A model generated the notes under the pieces. That model had not been told where the DNA came from, made no database searches, and saw nothing but the letters and a program-made list of their open reading frames with translations. This document shows positions 34,073 through 43,702 of a DNA stretch of 64,000 bases, in pieces. How positions within the stretch are numbered: position 1 is the first letter of the stretch; the number at the start of each line of letters is the position of its first letter. Source of the DNA: Paratrimastix pyriformis. Lineage: Eukaryota > Preaxostyla > Paratrimastigidae. Location: assembly GCA_027972325.1 (NCBI GenBank), contig JAPMOS010000007.1, forward strand, positions 303,501 to 367,500, given 5' to 3'. Position numbers and translations under genes: made by a program.

Positions 34073-35909
34073 TCAGAGGCACTCGCACCAGCCGTAGAGC
34101 AGCAGGTAGGCCCGGGCCCCCTGGGGGACGGTCAGGGCCTCCCGCTGGCTGGCCACCAGGCGGACGTCCTCAAAGTCGAACTGGTACCACACCCGCTCGG
34201 CGGCCGCCTCGGGCCCCGGGGCCGGGCCCCCCAGGGTCGTTGGGGCGGCCGCCTCCGTGGGGTCCCCGCCCAGGGGGTGCGTGGGGGGCGCCCCCGGGTC
34301 GGGCGGCAGGCAGCCGGCGCAGCGGCGGCAGCGGGTGGGCCCCATGGCGCACCGGACGAAGAAGTGGCCCTCGGAGGGGCTGCCCGTGTGCAGGACCACC
34401 GCCCAGAGGCGGAAGCCCACCCGCCCGTCGGCCAGCAGGGGGAAGGCCAGCCACTCGGGGAGCAGGGTACCCTCGGCCGCCGAGGTGGCCACCGAGGCCA
34501 CCGAGGGCATCAGCCAGCCCTCCTCGCCCCCTCGGGGGCTCTGGTCCAGGATGACCCCCGCCAGCAAGGCCTCCGCATCGGCCGGGCTGGGGGCCGGGAC
34601 CAGGGCGGCCCCGAGGGGCGGCCTGCACAGGGACATGGCCTGCTGGAGCACCTCGAAGGCGTCCGCCTGGCCGCAGCCCCCCGCGTGCTGGGCCAGGAAC
34701 TGCAGCAGCCCCTGGCAGCCCACCACGGGGCTCGGGCCGTGGCCCTGGGACAGCGACCGCACCGCCTCCACGAGCTGGGCCGCCTCGGGGGAGGTCGGCG
34801 CGGCGGGGTCCGGCGAGGGCCCCGGGTCGGGATGCACGCAGGTGACGGTGCCCTCCCGGACCACGAAGTAGGGCGTCTGCTGCCGGCGCAGGACGGCAGC
34901 CCGGAGGTGGGGCACATACGTGATGGCCTGCCGGGTGGAGAAAGGGTCAGCTGGGTCAGGTGGGCGGGGGGGGGGGGGGGGGGGTTCGGGACTGGCCTGG
35001 ACGATGGACGAGCCGGCGCAGCACCCGTCCGCGTGGCCGAGCCCGGAGGGCCCCAGGGTCACCCGCATGGGCTCGTCGCACATGATCACGCAGTCGCACC
35101 GCAGCGGGCCCGACCCGATGGCCCGGGCCACGGGCAGGTACTGCTCCCGGGTGATGGCCGAGGCCTGCGAGGTGCCCGGGGAGGGGAGCAGCTGGTGGGT
35201 CAGGGTCCGGTTGGGCCCCTCCTCCCAGCGCAGGTCGGCTCCGTGCGGCCCGGTGTGCTTGAAGTTGCTGAGCCCGACGTACTTGAAGGTGGTGGGCAGC
35301 TGGTCGGCCGGCAGGGGAACGCAGGCCCACCAGAAGCCCGGGGATCGGGTGCCGGGGGGGTAGAGATGGTGCAGCGGGTACATGACCAAGGGACGATGGA
35401 CGTCCCAGCGCGAAAGAGCGGGGATCTCCCCCAAGACGGCAATAGCGTCCTCATCTCGAGTTGGCGCGTAAGTCATGAAGGCGACACGAACGCCACCCGC
35501 CGCTGGGAGAGGGAGACAGAAAAGGGTCGGATCTCCTGTGTGGGCGGGGAGAAGGTGACAGACGACAGGGGATGACGTAGGGCAACGCAATGTCGAGAAT
35601 TGTCGCCGGAGAGCCCTTCTTCTGCCAAGACATTTTGACCAGGATAGTGCTCTGTGTGCCGGATGGCATGTTGAGGATTGTCCGATTAGGCCCGTCTTCC
35701 CAAACGGGCTCCCCTTGGCCAACGACAACAAATTTAAACTCCACGTGTGGCATGAAGATGGGCAGCTTTCCCAGCCATGTTCCTGTGTTTCCAAGGGGGT
35801 AGAGAGGCACGGCGTCCTCCACCTTCCAGTTACCGAGTTCCGCAGTTGATCCCGAAACAACGAGTTGCTGCGATGGGTTGGAATGATACTCAATGAGGAC
35901 CCATATCAT
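34073..35909 (-). CDS. Tandem CBM20 modules fused to a ubiquitin-specific protease
   Basis: Exon 1 starts at ATG 35907-35909 and encodes a CBM20 starch/glycogen-binding module: LVVSGSTAELGNWKVEDAVP, VEFKFVVVGQGEPVWEDGPN. A second CBM20 follows (AVLGEIPALSRWDV, WWACVPLP, FKYVGLSNF, RWEEGPNRTL). The rest matches peptidase C19 (USP). The Cys box GLGHADGCCAGSSIVQ has its Cys codon at 35018-35020, AITYVPHLRAAVL follows after an intron, then GGCGQADAFEVLQQAM (the QQDAxEF box) and the His box SEGHFFVRC (His codon 34364-34366). The end is WYQFDFEDV and ARAYLLLYGWC. Cys, His and Asp are present, but the oxyanion-hole Asn of canonical NxGNTCY appears as His, so activity is likely but unproven. At about 580 residues the USP core is compact. 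One junction between the Cys box and AITYV is ambiguous. Confidence 0.82.
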
Positions 35910-35991
35910 CGGCCTTTGTGGTTTGCCGAGAAGACAGGAAACTTGACGACAGAGGCGTCAGGACCTTTGGGGATCTGCCGACTATTTTCGG
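35910..35991. promoter_or_regulatory. 82-bp bidirectional region, CBM20-USP and GT49/radical-SAM
   Basis: It separates two divergent start codons. Any promoters must overlap, which predicts correlated expression of the two fusion genes. No recognised element is visible. Confidence 0.45.
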
Positions 35992-38900
35992 ATGGCTGGC
36001 GTCGTTTGGGAACGGTGGGGCGTCCCATTGGGCGAGAATTATGTCCTAGAACAACTAGGTGGGTGGCCCAAGGATGGTTTTGCAACGTCCACTCAGCCCC
36101 AGATCGAGAAGCTGACACAGGAAGCCATCGCCCAGAATGCATTGACCAATTTCCCTGCCCTTGCCGACCTGTACGCAAATCATTTCCGTTATAACTCCCC
36201 TTGTGGATCTGTTCTTCGCCGTGCCTTTGCGTCGACTCTCCCCCTCCCCGAGGGGGGCACGGACTACACGACGCACGAGATTACCCTTGTGACGCACTGC
36301 TCATTCGACCGTCTGGGCGATCTTGATCTGCAAACCCAAGTTTGGCGGGGCCCGCTCTCTGTCTCCATCTCGGTCCCCGACCCTGGACAACTTTCGGTGG
36401 CTCACGATCAGATCGGGGCCCTCTTCCGGCGGTCCGAACAGGCTGGCCAATGCCGTCTGGTGATCACCCTTTTCTGCCCGGCACCACCGGATGTGTGCAC
36501 GAGGATGACGTCTCATGGGGCTCCGGCCCCGCCTCCACCGCCCCCGTCGCTGTACCCCAACAACCTGCTCCGGCAGGTGGCACTGGAGGAGGCCCGGACT
36601 GATCTGGTCTTCCTGTGTGATGTCGACCTGCTGTCCCTCGCCGGGGAGCTGCAGTCGCTGCCCCAGTTGCACCGGCCGCAGTCGGTGGCCCTGTACGACT
36701 CCCTCTGGCGGACCTGCTACGGGCACCGGTCGGTGGTGGTCGTCCCTGCCCTGGAGCTGAGCCCCACCGCCCGCCAGCAGGCCCTCTCGGCCGACCCCTA
36801 CGCGGCCTTCGAGTACATCGCCCCCATCCGCACCCGGTCCGCGCCATTGCCTTTCCTACCCACTACCACCACCACACCACCACCAGAGGCAACGTGTCCA
36901 CCGGCCTCACCCTGTCCGCCGTCGTGGCTGTGTGTGTGCGTGCGTGGCAGGGCCGCGGCGGTGACGGCCGTCCAGGACAACTACCTGATCGAGTTCTGGG
37001 CGGACCAGTACCCGACGGCCTACGGGCGCACCGACCTGGCCCGGTGGCTGCGCTGCTCGGCCGAGGCCGTCGACCCGTACGAGATCCAGTACGCCGACGA
37101 GGTTCCCACCTCCCCCACCTCCCTGCCCCCCTCCCGCCCCTGGGCTGTCGCCCATTCCGCCACCCTCGGGACCCTCCTGATGGGTCCGCTTTGCTGCTCT
37201 GGTTCGGGTGTGGCGGTGGGTGCCACGGGGCCAGTTCGAGCCGTACGTGATCGCCCCCCGACTGCTATTGCCCGGGTATGATACCCGCTTCGCCGGCTTC
37301 GGGAAGAACAAGGTCGGCGCGCGCGTCCCCCACCCCGCCCGCCTCACCTCCCCGACGACGCTTGGGGGCTGCAGCCCTCCCCATCAGCACGCCGCATTGC
37401 TTCTTCACGCCTCGCACCACCGTCTGACGAACCCCCCCCCCCCCCCGCGTACACACCCGCACACACACACACACAGTGCATCTACCTGCACCACCTGCAC
37501 GCGCTGGGCTTCCGGTTTATGGTGCACGGGCGCTTCTTCGTGGTGCACAACCCGCATCCGCCCTCGCCGGCCCGGGTGTGGATGTACAACCCCGACCGGA
37601 CCCGGCGGGGGGCCTCGGTCGCCGACCGTGCGCGCATCGACGGGCTCTACGCCCGGGCCAAGCAGGACATCGCCGCGCGGCTGCCCTGGTGCCTCGAGCC
37701 CACATCGGCACCCGTCGCGCCCCTCCGCGAGGGCCAGCCGGGTCCGGCCTCCCCCCTCCCCCCCCCCCCCCCCTCCCGCCACCGCCTTCTCGTGCTGCCA
37801 AGAATATATGCCATCCCTGCCCCCCGCTCACACGCCCTCACCAACCCCCTGCCCCACCCACAGGTCACTGGGTGGTGCCCCTGCGGTCCGCCGACCTGGC
37901 CCGTGCCCAGGCCCTGGAGAGCTACCGTGCCTGGGAGCACCTCTACCAGCTGCGGTACCGCTTCCCGGCCAAGCCCGTCCCCCAGCTGCTGCAGCTGCTC
38001 GAGGCGGCCAACCGCCCCGCGGGCCACCGCCCCCCGGCCGCCTCCGCCGCGGGTGGCCTGGCGGGCCTGTGGTCCTTCTGCCGGCCGCGGGCGCCCCCGG
38101 TGCGGCCCAAGCTGCCCCCGGGCGACGTCTTCGAGCTGCTCACCCCGGCCACCGTCGACCAGCTGCCCCGCCGCCTGCGGGCCCCCGACCGGGAGCGGGA
38201 CGTGACCCTGTTGACTCACTGCACGGTCGACCGGTTCTCGCGGGTCCTGCTGGCGGCCACCTACTGGGGCGGCCCCATCGGGGTGGCGGTGGCCCTGCGG
38301 GCCGACCACCCCGCCGGCTACAGCCTGGAGGCCCAGCGGGGACAGTGCGTGCGGCTCTTCCGGCTGCTGGCGGGCCGATGCCCCTGGGTGATGCTGGCCA
38401 TGGTCCGGGTCGGGCCCCAGCCGCCCGGCGGGCTCAGCCAGACCGCCCGCAGCATGAACGGGCCCATGCCCACTGCCCCGCTGCGGGCCGGCACGGGCAC
38501 GGGCACGGGCAGCAGCCTGGGCCCGTCGCTGTTCGACGACGAGCAAGGCTGCTACCCGTACAACCTGGTCCGCAACGCGGGGCTGCACTTCTGCGCGGCC
38601 ACCCGGCTGGTCTTCCTGACCGACGCCGACGTCATCCCGGCCCGGCACTGCTACACCACCCTGCGGGCCGACTCGGGCCTGGCCCAGGAGCTCAAGGCCA
38701 GCCCCTGCTTCGTGATCGTGCCCAGCTTCGAGCCCAGCGACGGCACCTCGGACACGCCCCTGCCCCTGGCCGAGACGCCCCCCGTGGTGGCCGGGCCGCC
38801 CGACCCGGACCCGCCCCGCTTCCGCAGCGTGGCCCCGTGCGTGGTCAGCCCCGGGGCCCGGCCCATCCACGCCCTGATGGCCGCCATGGGGGCCCAGACC

Positions 38901-41831
38901 CCGCCCAGCAGCCCGGCCGTCACCATGCCCCAACCCGACGTCTCTGCAGCGAGCCCTGCGAGCGGTGGTGTGGCGGGAGGAGCGGAGGCGGGAGCCGGAG
39001 CCGTCGGGGCGCCCAGTCTGGGGGCGCCCGCCCTGGAGGAGGAATGCCCGTACGATGCCTTCATCGGCACCCTCAAGACCAAGGTCGCCCTCCTCCCCCC
39101 CCCCCCCCCCCCCCCCCCCCCGCCACCCCTGCGCCCCTCATCTTCACTCCCCTTTCACCTTCCCCGCACAGACCGACGTGGTGCGGGCCGTGCGGCAGGG
39201 GGCTCTGGAGCTCTTCCACGGGCGGCGCTACCCGGCGGGCCACAGCCACGAGGACGCGGCCCTGTGGTGCTTCCTCCCGCCCGAGGTGGTGGCCCCCTAC
39301 CAGATGCACTACACCCGCGAGGGCCCCGAGCCCTACGTGGTGGTCGACCGCTCCTGGCTGCCCCCCTTCGACGAGCGGTCTGCCCAACCCCCCTCCCCAG
39401 CCCTCCTCCTCGCCCTTCATGATGATCTTTGGCACTTCATCATCGCCCGCATCCGGCCCCGCCCCCCGCCGCAGATACATCTATTACAAGGACCGGGTGG
39501 CCTGGTTCTACGAGTGCTACCGGCGCCACCGGGCCAGCTTCCTGGTGCACCCTGCCCTCTGGCTGATCGACGCCCCCCACGGGGCCACCTCCGACTGCCT
39601 CCGGGGCCGGGCCGAGCGGCTGGGCCGGAGCAACGCCCTCATGTGGACCCTCAACCAGGAGATCGCCCAGGCACAGGCCCAGGCCCAGGCACAGCAGACA
39701 CAGGCACAGGCGCAGGCCCCCGGGACGGGAATCTGCATCGACTTCTCGGAGCCGCCGCCCGAGGCCGAGTCCGAGCCCCCGCGCCAGCCCGAGGAGGAGG
39801 CGGGGGAGGATGTCCCGCCGGCCGGGGAGGCCGCCGTCCGGGCGCCCGCCGCGCTGGGGCTGGTGGGGCTGGCCCCCACGTCGACCCTGCCGGGTACCCT
39901 GGGGACCTTGTATCGGTCCGACCAGATCCGGTCGATCCACTTCGAGCTGACCACCCGGTGCTGCTCGGCCTGCCCCATGTGCCCGCGGACCCTCTACGGG
40001 GGGGCCGTCAACCCCAAGATGCCGCTGGTCGACCTGACCCTGGACGAGTTCCGCCGGTTCTTCCCGCCGCCCTTCGTGGCCCAGCTGCGCCACGTCTTCT
40101 TCTGCGGCAACTTCGGGGACCCTTCGTGCTCGGCCCACACCCTGGGCATCCTGCGCTACCTGCGCCAGGCACACCCGGGGCTGCAGATGGGCCTCTTCAC
40201 CAACGGCAGCGCCCGGGACGACCCCTGGTGGCGCGAGTGCGGCTCGCTGGTGGACTATGTGCGGTTCGCCATCGACGGGCTGGCCGACACCAACCACCTC
40301 TACCGGCGCCACACCCGCTGGGAGAATATCATGTCCCACGTGCGGGCCGTCCTGGCCGGGGGCAGGGCCAAGACCGAGTGGGACTACCTGGTCTTCAAGC
40401 ACAACCAGCACCAGGTCCGGGCCCCGATCATCATCCCCATGGGCAGGGGCCGATGGGGGGGGGACACGAAGCGACTGAGCGTTTCATTCCTGGTGATGAT
40501 GCGGGTGTGTGGGTTTGGTGTGGATGGGTTTGGTGCGGGTGGGCGCTGGCTGCTCGGGCAGGTGGAGGAGGCCCGCAAGTTGGCCCGGGACATGGGTTTC
40601 GCCGTGTTCAACGTCAAGCGCACCTCGCGCTTCTACCTGGGCGACCGCACCAAGTTCCCCGTCCACAACTTGCAGGTCCGGCACACCAGACCTCATGCAG
40701 GCCCTGCCCTGCCCTGCCCTGCCCTGGCGGTGGCGGTGGCGGTGGCGGTGGCGGTGGCGGTGGCGGTGGCGGTGGCGGTGGCGGTGGCGGTGGCGGTGGC
40801 GGTGGCGGTGGCGGTGGCGGTGGCGGTGGCGGTGGCGGTGGCGGTGCGGGTGGCGGTGTTTTGTGTGTGTGTGTGTGTGTGTGTGGTGAGCCGGGCCTGT
40901 CTTCGCCACCCGGAACCACCCACCGCCTGCCCACCACCCCCCAGGGGGACATCGAGTACTACCTGGAGCGGCCCACGGACGGCAAGATGAACAACCCCTG
41001 CTACGACATCGAGGACCAGCTCTGCTCCAAGTACGGCTCCATGGAGGAGGTCTGTCGTCGGTTCATGGCCCCACCCCCAGTCACCCACCGTCCAACCAAC
41101 CCCGGGGACATGCACCGATCCGGGCTGATCCATTCGTTTGGGTCGGGGCAGTACCACCGGCAATGCGACATCGAGTGCAAGGCCGCCAAAGGCACCGAGA
41201 TCTACGTCGATGCTGCCGTCCGTACCGCAGGCCCCTCCTCCATGCCTCCCCGCTCCTGCCGCTCCCCCAGATCAGCTGCTGACCAGACCCGGGGTTCTGT
41301 CCGCCCCATCTGCTCCTGCAGGGCCACGTGTTCCCCTGCTGCTGGACGGCCAAGCTGTGGCACTGGCGGCCCGACACGGAGAGCACCCAGGTGCTGGGCC
41401 TCCTCGACCGGCTGCTCCCCGAGGGCCCCGAGGCGCTCGACCTGCACCTGCACAGCCTCCCGCAGATCGTCGACCAGGGGCCCCTCTTCCGCGGGGTGGC
41501 CGCCTCCTTCCAGGAGCACGTGCTGGGCCCCCAGGGCCGTCTGAAGATCTGCGCGTCCCACTGTGGCCGCGAGCTGGATCCTTTTCGGCTGCAATTCTTG
41601 GGCGGTCGCGGCCGCAGGCCCCAGCAGCAGGCGCCCACGGCCGAGGAGATCCCAGAGAGCGCCGAGGCCTGCCCCGCCCAGGCATCACCCACTGTCACCA
41701 ACGTAACCGTGGCCGTGGCTGTGGTTCCTCCGACGACCGCTCAATCGCCCCCGACGACAGATGCAGTCGCTTCGGATGCGCCTGCCCTGGCAGGCCCCGC
41801 CGAGCCTGTCCTGGCGGCGCAGACGCAGTGA
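35992..41831 (+). CDS. Double GT49 glycosyltransferase fused to radical SAM/SPASM-like domain
   Basis: The first GT49 (LARGE/B4GAT1-type glucuronyl or hexosyl transferase) spans about 36.25-37.6 kb: ITLVTHCSFDRLGDLDLQTQ, YPNNLLRQVALEEARTDLVF, DxD as CDVDLL (36619-36627), and FEPYVIAPRLLLPGYDTRFA followed by CIYLHHLHALGFRFMVHG. A second GT49 spans about 38.2-39.6 kb: VTLLTHCTVDRF, YPYNLVRNAGLHFCAATRLV, DxD as TDADVI (38622-38630), EPYVVVDRSWLPPFDER. After a Gln/Ala and acidic linker comes a radical SAM domain with the [4Fe-4S] motif CCSACPMC (39959-39982), FFCGNFGDPS, FTNGSARDDPWW and VRFAIDGLADTNHLYRRHTR. Later Cys clusters (CYDIEDQLC, CDIEC, GHVFPCCW, 40.99-41.34 kb) resemble SPASM. No signal peptide or anchor is seen. 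Introns hold poly-C and GGTGGC arrays. TGA at 41829. It probably builds and modifies a glycan; the substrate is unknown. Confidence 0.85.
39086..39122. repeat. Poly-C tract in the GT49 gene
   Basis: A run of about 27 C follows the donor after GTLKTK. It is one of some two dozen long C runs (or G runs on the + strand of minus-strand genes) in introns across the window. Confidence 0.85.
40725..40856. repeat. GGTGGC hexamer array in an intron
   Basis: About 20 copies of GGTGGC precede a (GT)n run at about 40861-40884, inside the intron between FPVHNLQ and the exon beginning GDIEYYLERPTDGKMN. The same hexamer recurs near 47160-47205 in VPS15. Confidence 0.9.
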
Positions 41832-42024: not shown

Positions 42025-43702
42025 ATGGGGCAGGCTGCGGCCAAAGGCCGACGAGGAGCGCCGTTTTCCCCACTGAACAGCCCCAAATACCAAAAGAAGT
42101 TGACATTTCGCGACCCGCCGGCCGGGTCGGGACCATTGTTGAATGATTTTTCTTTCACGTTTGTGGCTGCCCCAGTCGCTCCGTTGGAGCGTACTCTCCC
42201 GATGGAAGTTGTTCGATTGATTTTGTCGCATCTCACTGAAATTACCGACCTCTATTCGGTCCTCTCCGTTTGCAAACTCTGGCAGGCGCAGGTCAAAGTC
42301 TGTGTCGGACTCTCAGCAGCTGTTCTTCTCACGCTTCGAAGGAGGGGACAGTATTTTTAGACGCTTTTGATTGGAGGGAGCGTCTTGGAGACAGCCAGTT
42401 ATTGGCGCTCCTCAAAAGGACGCCAACGATTCGCAGCATTCGCCTGTCCGGGTGTCAGCTTCTCTCCGACGCCTCTATTTCCGCGATGGCGACTGCATGT
42501 CCATACTTGGAGCAGATTATCTTGAACCGTTGCCTTCAATTCACAACTGCATCGCTGGACGCCTTGTCCCAGCTGCCATACTTGGAGGTGCTCTCCCTCG
42601 GGAGCTGCTCTCAGCTCGCCGATGGCGACCTGGCCGCAGCGCTCCGGGAGGGATCTTTTCCGGCACTCAAAACCATGATTCTAGCTTCGACCAAGGCTGG
42701 CCCGGCCACCGCGCAGGCACTCCTCCGCCAGTGGGCCCTGGGCACGCGTCCGTGCCTCTTGTTGCTCGATCTCTCTTCCTGTGCTGGAATGACTGGAACC
42801 CGGCTTCTCCTCCGCCCCGAGGGCGAGCGATCCTCCGCTCCTCCATCTATTGACTCGGCTCTCCACCCCCTCGAGATCCGGCTCTCGTGCACCGGGGTCC
42901 GCGCGGGCGCCCTGGCAGACCTCGCCCTCAGCCCGGCCATTGGCCATCTTCGGCACCTGGTCCTCGCCTTGTGCCCCTCGGTCGATGACGAGGCCCTGGC
43001 CGCCCTGGCACGGGGATTCCGGCTGGCAACCCTTGATCTTTCCCATTGCACGACCATCGGCGACCGCGGCCTGCGGGACCTGAGCGGTCCCGGGTCGACG
43101 CTGGCGTCCACTCTGATCGAGCTCAATCTGGCCTCGTGCCCCAATTTGACCGAAGCAGGTGTGGCGGCTCTCTGTGTGGGCTGTCCCGGGTTGGAGGCAC
43201 TCTCGCTGGCCTCCAATTCAGGTATTGGAGACGCCGTTTTGGCGGCCGTGGCTGCCGGGCTTCCCAGGATCCGAACTCTCGATCTGTCTCGAACTTCGGT
43301 GGCCCTAACCGCGGACGAGCCAGACTCGGCGACCCCATCAGCGCTCTTTCAGTTGGCCTCGGAACGCTTGTACGCCCTCAACCTGAGTCACTGCCCCGTG
43401 CCGGATGGCAGTCTGCTGGTACGGCAGCTGCTGCCTCCCGGGATGGTGTTGCAGATGCACGAAACTGAGGTCTGCTCACGCCATGTTTCCTCTCCCTCAT
43501 ATTCTCGTCCCGCGGCCCGCTGCTGTAGGTCACACGACCAGCCTGGAGTCTGTCCCTCGGCAGGCTCGATGTGCGCGGAGTGCCGCTCGGCGCTGCTGCG
43601 GGGGAACTATTCCGCCTGATGGCCCTGCACGGCCCCCGCCTGGCCACGATCCTCACCGACGCGATGTGCCATTGCGGGGGAGAGAACGCTCTTTTCGTTT
43701 GA
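42025..43702 (+). CDS. F-box/leucine-rich-repeat protein (FBXL-like)
   Basis: Three exons, 42025-42301, 42352-43469 and 43529-43702, are fixed by frame (donors GTGTCG and GTCTGC) and give about 522 residues. The F-box is ERTLPMEVVRLILSHLTEIT followed by LYSVLSVCKLWQAQV. Cysteine-containing LRRs of the FBXL/AMN1 type follow: IRSIRLSGCQLLSDASISAM, LEQIILNRCLQFTTASLDAL, LEVLSLGSCSQLADGDLAAA, LATLDLSHCTTIGDRGLRDL, LIELNLASCPNLTEAGVAAL and IRTLDLSRTSV. This curved solenoid binds SCF substrates in relatives such as FBXL2 and FBXL20. It is the best-preserved F-box gene of the window. The third exon, which reads through to TGA 43700, was chosen because the alternative frame stops sooner and lacks the GTCTGC donor. 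The stop is 60 bp from that of VPS15. Confidence 0.85.

Follow-up and report, generated by a model that had tools for sequence, protein, structure and literature searches.

A predicted fusion of two GT49 glycosyltransferase domains and a radical SAM domain in the protist Paratrimastix pyriformis

In a 64,000-nucleotide stretch of the genome of Paratrimastix pyriformis (contig JAPMOS010000007.1, positions 303,501 to 367,500; hereafter the window), we located on the forward strand a gene (35992..41831) predicted to encode two glycosyltransferase family 49 (GT49) domains, here called GT49a and GT49b, followed by a radical SAM (rSAM) domain. Based upon the spliced frame, we regard it as nearly certain that the three parts stand in one predicted chain. 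Each part belongs to a known superfamily, and the joined architecture is new to us. We know of no other combination of GT49 and radical SAM, and among the papers listed by a literature search, titles and the openings of abstracts named neither a GT49-rSAM fusion nor a eukaryotic fusion of a glycosyltransferase with an rSAM domain. Eukaryotic radical SAM enzymes are few and serve mostly in cofactor synthesis or tRNA modification. The architecture may be more widespread among eukaryotes, of which the host genome (56.06 Mb, 495 contigs) was the one searched.

The gene model was built from six-frame open reading frames (ORFs) and the raw sequence, the choice of introns being guided by frame and homology. 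Removal of ten GT-AG introns leaves an open frame of 1499 amino acids in 11 exons on the + strand (35992-36836, 36951-37101, 37235-37312, 37477-37741, 37864-39083, 39172-39377, 39475-40414, 40562-40675, 40945-41049, 41152-41217 and 41322-41831). The ATG at 35992 and the stop codon ending at 41831 bear out the single gene placed here by a preliminary description of this DNA, and an in-frame stop lies upstream at 35944. For seven of the ten introns the length is not a multiple of three, and the spliced frame extends homology to LARGE1 or to rSAM relatives across the joins. No intron (0/10) contains an in-frame stop, so that the frame by itself does not exclude intron retention. Nine donors read GTC and one GTT, while C follows 66 of the 190 exonic GT dinucleotides of the gene; since some donors were chosen partly for being GTC and in frame, the GTC count is no clean test.

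The fusion point, defined from the ORFs, the raw sequence and the spliced frame, falls within a single exon (39475..40414, +) which carries the C-terminus of GT49b, a linker and the rSAM core (aa 922-1235). The stretch at 39.6-40.0 kb, singled out for checking in the preliminary description, lies wholly inside this uninterrupted exon. The translated linker (aa 985-1066; 39662..39907, +) is of low complexity, with AQ repeats followed by an acidic and proline-rich segment. Between aa 901 and 1121 the only methionines are M978 in the tail of GT49b, M1090 inside the rSAM motif, and M1104. There is no ATG between the GT49b tail and the rSAM motif, and a separate rSAM protein would therefore lack a start there; a separate rSAM gene was rejected on this ground. 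The GC content of third codon positions (GC3) is 0.814 in GT49a, 0.954 in GT49b and 0.955 in the rSAM domain.

Both halves of the glycosyltransferase region exceed the cut-off of 27 bits for Pfam family PF13896 (GT49), with 106.9 bits for GT49a and 67.3 bits for GT49b, and both find LARGE1, an animal enzyme of muscle-protein glycosylation, as their PDB match (2.9e-18 and 6.5e-11, respectively). The two GT49 domains claimed earlier, each with a DxD, are thereby recovered, and domain searches reject GT49 for neither half. GT49a (aa 97-384; 36280..37554, +), delimited by Pfam, the PDB match and alignment, has DVD at aa 210 and keeps both Mn-binding histidine positions (VHNPH, from aa 381). GT49b (about aa 559-965; 38199..39604, +), delimited by Pfam and alignment, contains a low-complexity insert, DAD at aa 700 and IDAPH from aa 953. 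Identity between the two is 34% when they are aligned with MAFFT and 31% over the main segments of a BLAST comparison. In LARGE1, Asp563-X-Asp565 and histidines including an extra His708 bind the metal (PMC9746966); which histidine corresponds to 708 was derived from the alignment offset. By alignment, GT49a keeps all of the LARGE1 metal-site residues (DVD and both histidines). GT49b keeps DAD and the His708 equivalent, with the first histidine changed to aspartate (IDAPH for H..PH) and the GFG.NK segment replaced by YYKDR.

A Pfam scan of the two halves gave GT49 only, with no match to GT8, which upholds the preliminary view that this is not the GT8-GT49 layout of LARGE. In the host genome the PF13896 profile matched only these two places and a protein search with GT49a returned only the fusion gene; a protein search for a second copy of the rSAM domain likewise returned only this locus. 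These own-genome searches score the best candidates only, exon by exon, and a diverged copy could be missed. Among viral contigs, 29 pattern matches to GT49 were obtained and none was confirmed, the query being built from two sequences only and hence of low sensitivity. No GT49 was detected by blastp at 1e-3 among 2906 ORFs (at least 90 aa) in 155 loci surrounding rSAM relatives. In 39 rSAM-bearing bacterial genomes, representing 40 of 77 loci, there was one match with an E-value of 0.009, and in 191 genomes from the phylum of L130, the closest bacterial relative of the rSAM domain, one with an E-value of 6.3e-4; neither set gave a match over the cut-off.

The rSAM domain (aa 1067-1423; 39908..41600, +) was delimited by homology, alignment and conservation, and has one predicted auxiliary Fe-S site. 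In the spliced frame it is interrupted by four introns (40415-40561, 40676-40944, 41050-41151 and 41218-41321, together spanning 40415..41321, +). C1084, C1088 and C1091 form the rSAM motif CxxxCxxC, and C1317, C1336, C1407 and C1411 lie at columns invariant in 57 relatives, in agreement with the motif and later cysteines first noted. Altogether the domain keeps 22/22 invariant and 22/24 near-invariant columns of 57 prokaryotic and viral relatives. Since all of the invariant residues are kept, this argues for a working enzyme. The sequence sets were A1, with 17 of 78 viral loci, and A2, with 57 sequences hand-picked from 78 viral and 77 bacterial loci.

The Pfam Radical_SAM model (PF04055) gives the window domain 21.7 bits, under its cut-off of 29.5. 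Its assignment to the superfamily is based on relatives that align with it over the full length and themselves exceed this value; the CxxxCxxC motif and the fold of the bacterial relative agree with the partial TIM barrel of radical SAM enzymes. NF033640, the twitch domain-containing rSAM model N_Twi_rSAM, gives 21.7 bits (E 9.3e-5), under the NCBIfam cut-off of 170, and phrog_21308 is matched at 2.8e-18. SPASM (PF13186) gave no match in this domain at E 0.5. The SPASM pattern comprises seven cysteines and two clusters; because only four auxiliary cysteines are invariant here, Twitch-like is the better label. Of the earlier designation radical SAM/SPASM-like, the first term can be kept and the second should be replaced.

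The bacterial and phage-type affinity proposed for this domain is evident from its relatives, which account for 209 of 210 pattern matches in viral contigs and 112 of 177 in one-per-species prokaryote genomes. The best 80 relatives were kept in each search, corresponding to 78 viral and 77 prokaryote loci; a tblastn search of GenBank phages yielded four distant matches. The matches include Bdellovibrionota, Myxococcota, Gammaproteobacteria, Verrucomicrobiota, Elusimicrobiota and cyanobacteria. Among the best 80, the best bacterial members show about 36-44% identity over about 350 aa, the highest full-length value being the 44% of L130 (Bdellovibrionales, Bdellovibrionota), whose start MYSSNQI aligns with LYRSDQI of the fusion protein. 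The bacterial relatives are mostly stand-alone proteins of about 360 aa with the signature VFKHN[EQ]HQ. In the viral loci kept from the best 80 relatives, ORF and match begin no more than 17 residues apart in every case (78/78) and end no more than 23 apart in 61/78. As the viral ORFs thus extend little beyond the match, the protist gene holds an entire prokaryotic-type protein of about 360 aa.

Some relatives are longer. The cyanobacterial members (L145, L148-L156, L158-L162 and L171; Microcoleus, Tychonema, Lyngbya and others) are mostly of 527 aa, and L145, the one scanned, has a TPR block inserted after the rSAM core. Viral-contig members L017, L018, L019, L032, L051, L053 and L058 have a C-terminal tail of about 210 aa; L017, L032 and L051 were scanned, and in each the tail matches the short-chain dehydrogenases weakly. 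L030 (4989-8876) encodes a viral member of 1295 aa, the last 900 of which are without Pfam match.

In a quick tree of the first 90 of 115 rows after thinning (127 before), the rSAM domain of the window lies together with 41 bacterial and 31 viral rows in one open fork (73 rows), and it is contained in no starred set comprising half of the rows or fewer. The nearest rows by path are Bdellovibrionota; the donor may have been bacterial or viral. Since GT49 was not found near the bacterial rSAM genes, nor above cut-off in the 39 and 191 genomes searched, the two kinds of domain probably evolved separately and were joined in the eukaryote.

The surroundings of the bacterial relatives were surveyed in 18 loci, taking 101 of the 148 neighbouring ORFs listed (at least 130 aa, within 5 kb). 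L116 and ORFs similar to the window rSAM domain at 1e-20 were left out, and 47 further ORFs, including all of L102, were dropped by hand. Among the 101, Radical_SAM was present in 33, Glycos_transf_2 in 8, SPASM in 8, an EpsD glycosyltransferase model in 5 and UDP-glucose/GDP-mannose dehydrogenase in 2, and 26 matched the NF033640 twitch rSAM model at E 1e-10 or better. For comparison, eight control regions (of ten sought) were scanned in other parts of eight of these genomes, covering 58 of their 59 ORFs. There either rSAM or Glycos_transf_2 accounted for at most 1/58 ORFs, an upper bound based on the 25 families listed of 103. The suggestion that such rSAM proteins are encoded near glycosyltransferases is upheld: glycosyltransferases are present, though other rSAM genes dominate. 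Several different rSAM genes stand side by side in L130, L131, L132, L137, L095 and other loci. Some of these multi-rSAM clusters, often in Bdellovibrionota, also contain glycosyltransferases and nucleoside-diphosphate-sugar (NDP-sugar) enzymes. We consider the clusters to be an uncharacterised biosynthetic system.

An AlphaFold model of L130, computed from 57 sequences, reached a predicted local distance difference test score (pLDDT) of 97.1. Its best PDB fold match is BlsE (7vob; E 2.2e-12), and the sugar enzymes BtrN, SpeY and DesII are found at ranks 43, 46 and 48. BlsE decarboxylates cytosylglucuronic acid, a glucuronoside, at C5 (PMC3715490). Fold and profile matches together are compatible with a Twitch-like enzyme.

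No membrane anchor was recognised by hydropathy, the highest 19-residue value being 1.37, inside GT49a; no dedicated transmembrane predictor was run. Windows starting in the first 60 residues reach at most 0.44, which gives no indication of an N-terminal anchor. With no apparent membrane segment, the fusion protein is unlike the Golgi enzyme LARGE. It is most likely cytosolic, because the rSAM clusters would need a supply of Fe-S and a reductant, and no signal is present. The host is apparently anaerobic, judging by its gene content. Its genome has 22 exon-level matches to PF02906, the [FeFe]-hydrogenase family, among which related non-hydrogenase proteins may be included, and a HydG-like gene; these lie on contig C332 and others (L185, L186). 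The best HydG-like match reaches 6.1e-67, with none over the cut-off exon by exon; such matches occur too in 7 of 14 control genomes, in one of them over the cut-off.

The earlier suggestion that the protein may polymerise a glycan and modify a sugar or peptide is plausible. We propose that it is a cytosolic enzyme which builds a glycan and edits the product through radical chemistry, and to this we give an even chance. The proposal follows from the logic of tandem glycosyltransferases, the GT2 and NDP-sugar company of the bacterial relatives, and the BlsE fold. GT49a, with its complete metal site, would transfer one sugar residue; the donor is probably a UDP-sugar and the residue a hexuronate or hexose. 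The divergent GT49b would add the alternate sugar or hold the acceptor. The two tandem GT-A domains would take turns, as they do in LARGE1 and in K4CP, the chondroitin polymerase of E. coli K4. The rSAM domain would carry a [4Fe-4S] cluster that cleaves S-adenosylmethionine (SAM) and probably one auxiliary [4Fe-4S] cluster; it would abstract a hydrogen atom either from the growing glycan or from the carrier, and oxidise, epimerise or otherwise edit its target in step with assembly. Captured bacterial glycan-modifying chemistry would in this way be covalently coupled to a eukaryotic glycosyltransferase pair. In a bolder form, which we consider a long shot, the protein would be a cytosolic co-polymerase in which the tandem GT49 domains build a uronate chain and the rSAM domain performs C5 (or neighbouring) chemistry on each uronate. 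The radical step would then be an epimerisation, dehydrogenation or decarboxylation, giving an undescribed eukaryotic polysaccharide or protein glycan.

Several observations weigh against glycan editing. GT49b, with aspartate for a Mn-binding histidine and without GFG.NK, may be inactive. In algae, too, GT49 is of unclear activity (PMC3797821). The GC3 of GT49a lies below that of the other two domains. The fold match to BlsE is moderate (TM-score 0.53/0.58). Ranks 2-12 are occupied by enzymes that act on peptides, cofactors or nucleotides, beginning with SkfB, MoaA, viperin and SuiB and including PqqE and a sactipeptide maturase, so that the substrate is not fixed by the fold. A sequence profile ranks NifB, GDGT-MAS and MoaA above BlsE, which is matched weakly (3.3e-4). 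Among NCBIfam models, what the rSAM domain matches best is not a sugar enzyme but the tungsten-oxidoreductase maturase family TIGR04317, over residues 29-298 of the piece scanned (39.5 bits against a cut-off of 380; E 3.5e-10). Finally, the bacterial neighbours are mainly other rSAM enzymes.

The same fusion might act on a different substrate, the rSAM domain modifying a polypeptide or an enzyme cofactor in the manner of a maturase and the GT49 domains glycosylating the same carrier. The TIGR04317 match, though far under its cut-off, points in this direction, as does the presence of the peptide enzymes SkfB, SuiB, anSME and PqqE in the fold list; SPASM and Twitch enzymes often act on peptides. 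Such a role nevertheless appears unlikely to us, given that Pfam and NCBIfam scans of the rSAM domain revealed no leader-peptide-binding domain, that glycosyltransferases and NDP-sugar enzymes occur in the bacterial context, and that a glucuronoside is the substrate of BlsE, the best match by fold. We are similarly doubtful that at least one domain, most likely GT49b, is a non-catalytic scaffold, which would leave effectively one glycosyltransferase and a radical enzyme. The altered IDAPH and YYKDR segments and the long low-complexity insert would fit a scaffold, but DAD and the second histidine are retained, and aspartate is itself able to bind metal.

Two further explanations are very improbable. 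Two or three adjacent genes might have been wrongly joined, or a contaminant or assembly chimera might be involved: the model is derived from sequence alone, intron retention is possible by frame, and the GC3 of GT49a differs from that of the other domains. Set against this, the C-terminus of GT49b and the rSAM core share an exon that offers no ATG for a separate rSAM protein, GTC introns interrupt the rSAM exons as they do the GT49 exons, the GC3 of the rSAM domain equals that of GT49b, and the gene sits on a contig of 1,027,638 bases; chimera and contaminant were accordingly rejected. A Golgi polymerase of the LARGE type, whose rSAM tail is inert or merely assists, would account for the match of both halves to the glucuronic acid (GlcA)-transferase domain of LARGE1. 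Against it stand the lack of a GT8 match in either half and of a hydrophobic anchor, on which grounds a LARGE orthologue was rejected, the little room left upstream for a missed anchor exon, and the retention of all 22 invariant rSAM residues.

The upstream space is the gap of 82 bases (35910..35991) between the fusion gene and a divergent CBM20 gene, the ATG of which is at 35909 on the minus strand; it could be a promoter shared by both. The CBM20 neighbour (34076-35909, minus) was recognised by two starch-binding matches, which lie in different frames and were interpreted as exons of a single gene; it hints, though faintly, at an alpha-glucan as a possible acceptor. Downstream, at 42025-43616 (+), F-box-like and leucine-rich-repeat matches probably belong to one gene.

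With regard to the GTC donors, the host genome has eight matches resembling U1 small nuclear RNA, the best (60.2 bits, E 3.7e-13) under the Rfam gathering score of 69.5. With so permissive a threshold, matches also occur in 3 of 14 control genomes from prokaryotes, none over the gathering score. The 5' ends of four of the eight copies were read and all start with ATACAGACCTTG (L181 1501-1512, and the same place in L182-L184), the canonical start being ATACTTACCTG. The sequence ATACAGACCTTG is complementary to CAAG/GTCTGTAT. Summed over the ten donors, Watson-Crick pairs number 61 with the host U1 and 52 with the canonical one; five of the donors form as many pairs with either, and the other five form more with the host U1. 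Perhaps the change in U1 is matched to a genome-wide GTC donor, the donors having been read in the fusion gene.

With a GT49 pair covalently coupled to a captured radical enzyme of bacterial type, the fusion would point directly to a radical-modified eukaryotic glycan. It also suggests what kind of substrate may be used by an uncharacterised rSAM family of predatory bacteria and viral contigs. As it was found only once in the host genome, the fusion lends itself to testing.

Among known systems, LARGE1 and LARGE2 (GT8-GT49), the xylosyl- and glucuronyltransferases of matriglycan, resemble the fusion protein in having two GT-A domains in tandem in one chain and, for GT49a, a GT49 domain with DxD and H..PH. 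They differ in that the fusion protein has two GT49 domains, no GT8, no apparent anchor or signal, and an added rSAM domain. K4CP also has tandem glycosyltransferase domains acting alternately; it is bacterial, its two domains are GT2 and not GT49, and to our knowledge it has no rSAM domain. It is named as the closest structural homologue of the LARGE1 GlcA-transferase in PMC9746966. BlsE, the radical SAM enzyme that is the best fold match of the bacterial relative and acts on glucuronic acid at C5, shares 16% identity in the fold alignment, has GGEP where the rSAM family has CG..GDP, and is not fused to glycosyltransferases. The TIGR04317 maturases are the best NCBIfam match, yet by the NCBI rule the rSAM domain, far under the cut-off, is not a member. 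The rSAM family of Bdellovibrionota, myxobacteria and phages has 22 invariant columns in common with the fusion protein, and differs in that its members mostly stand alone, clustered with other rSAM enzymes.
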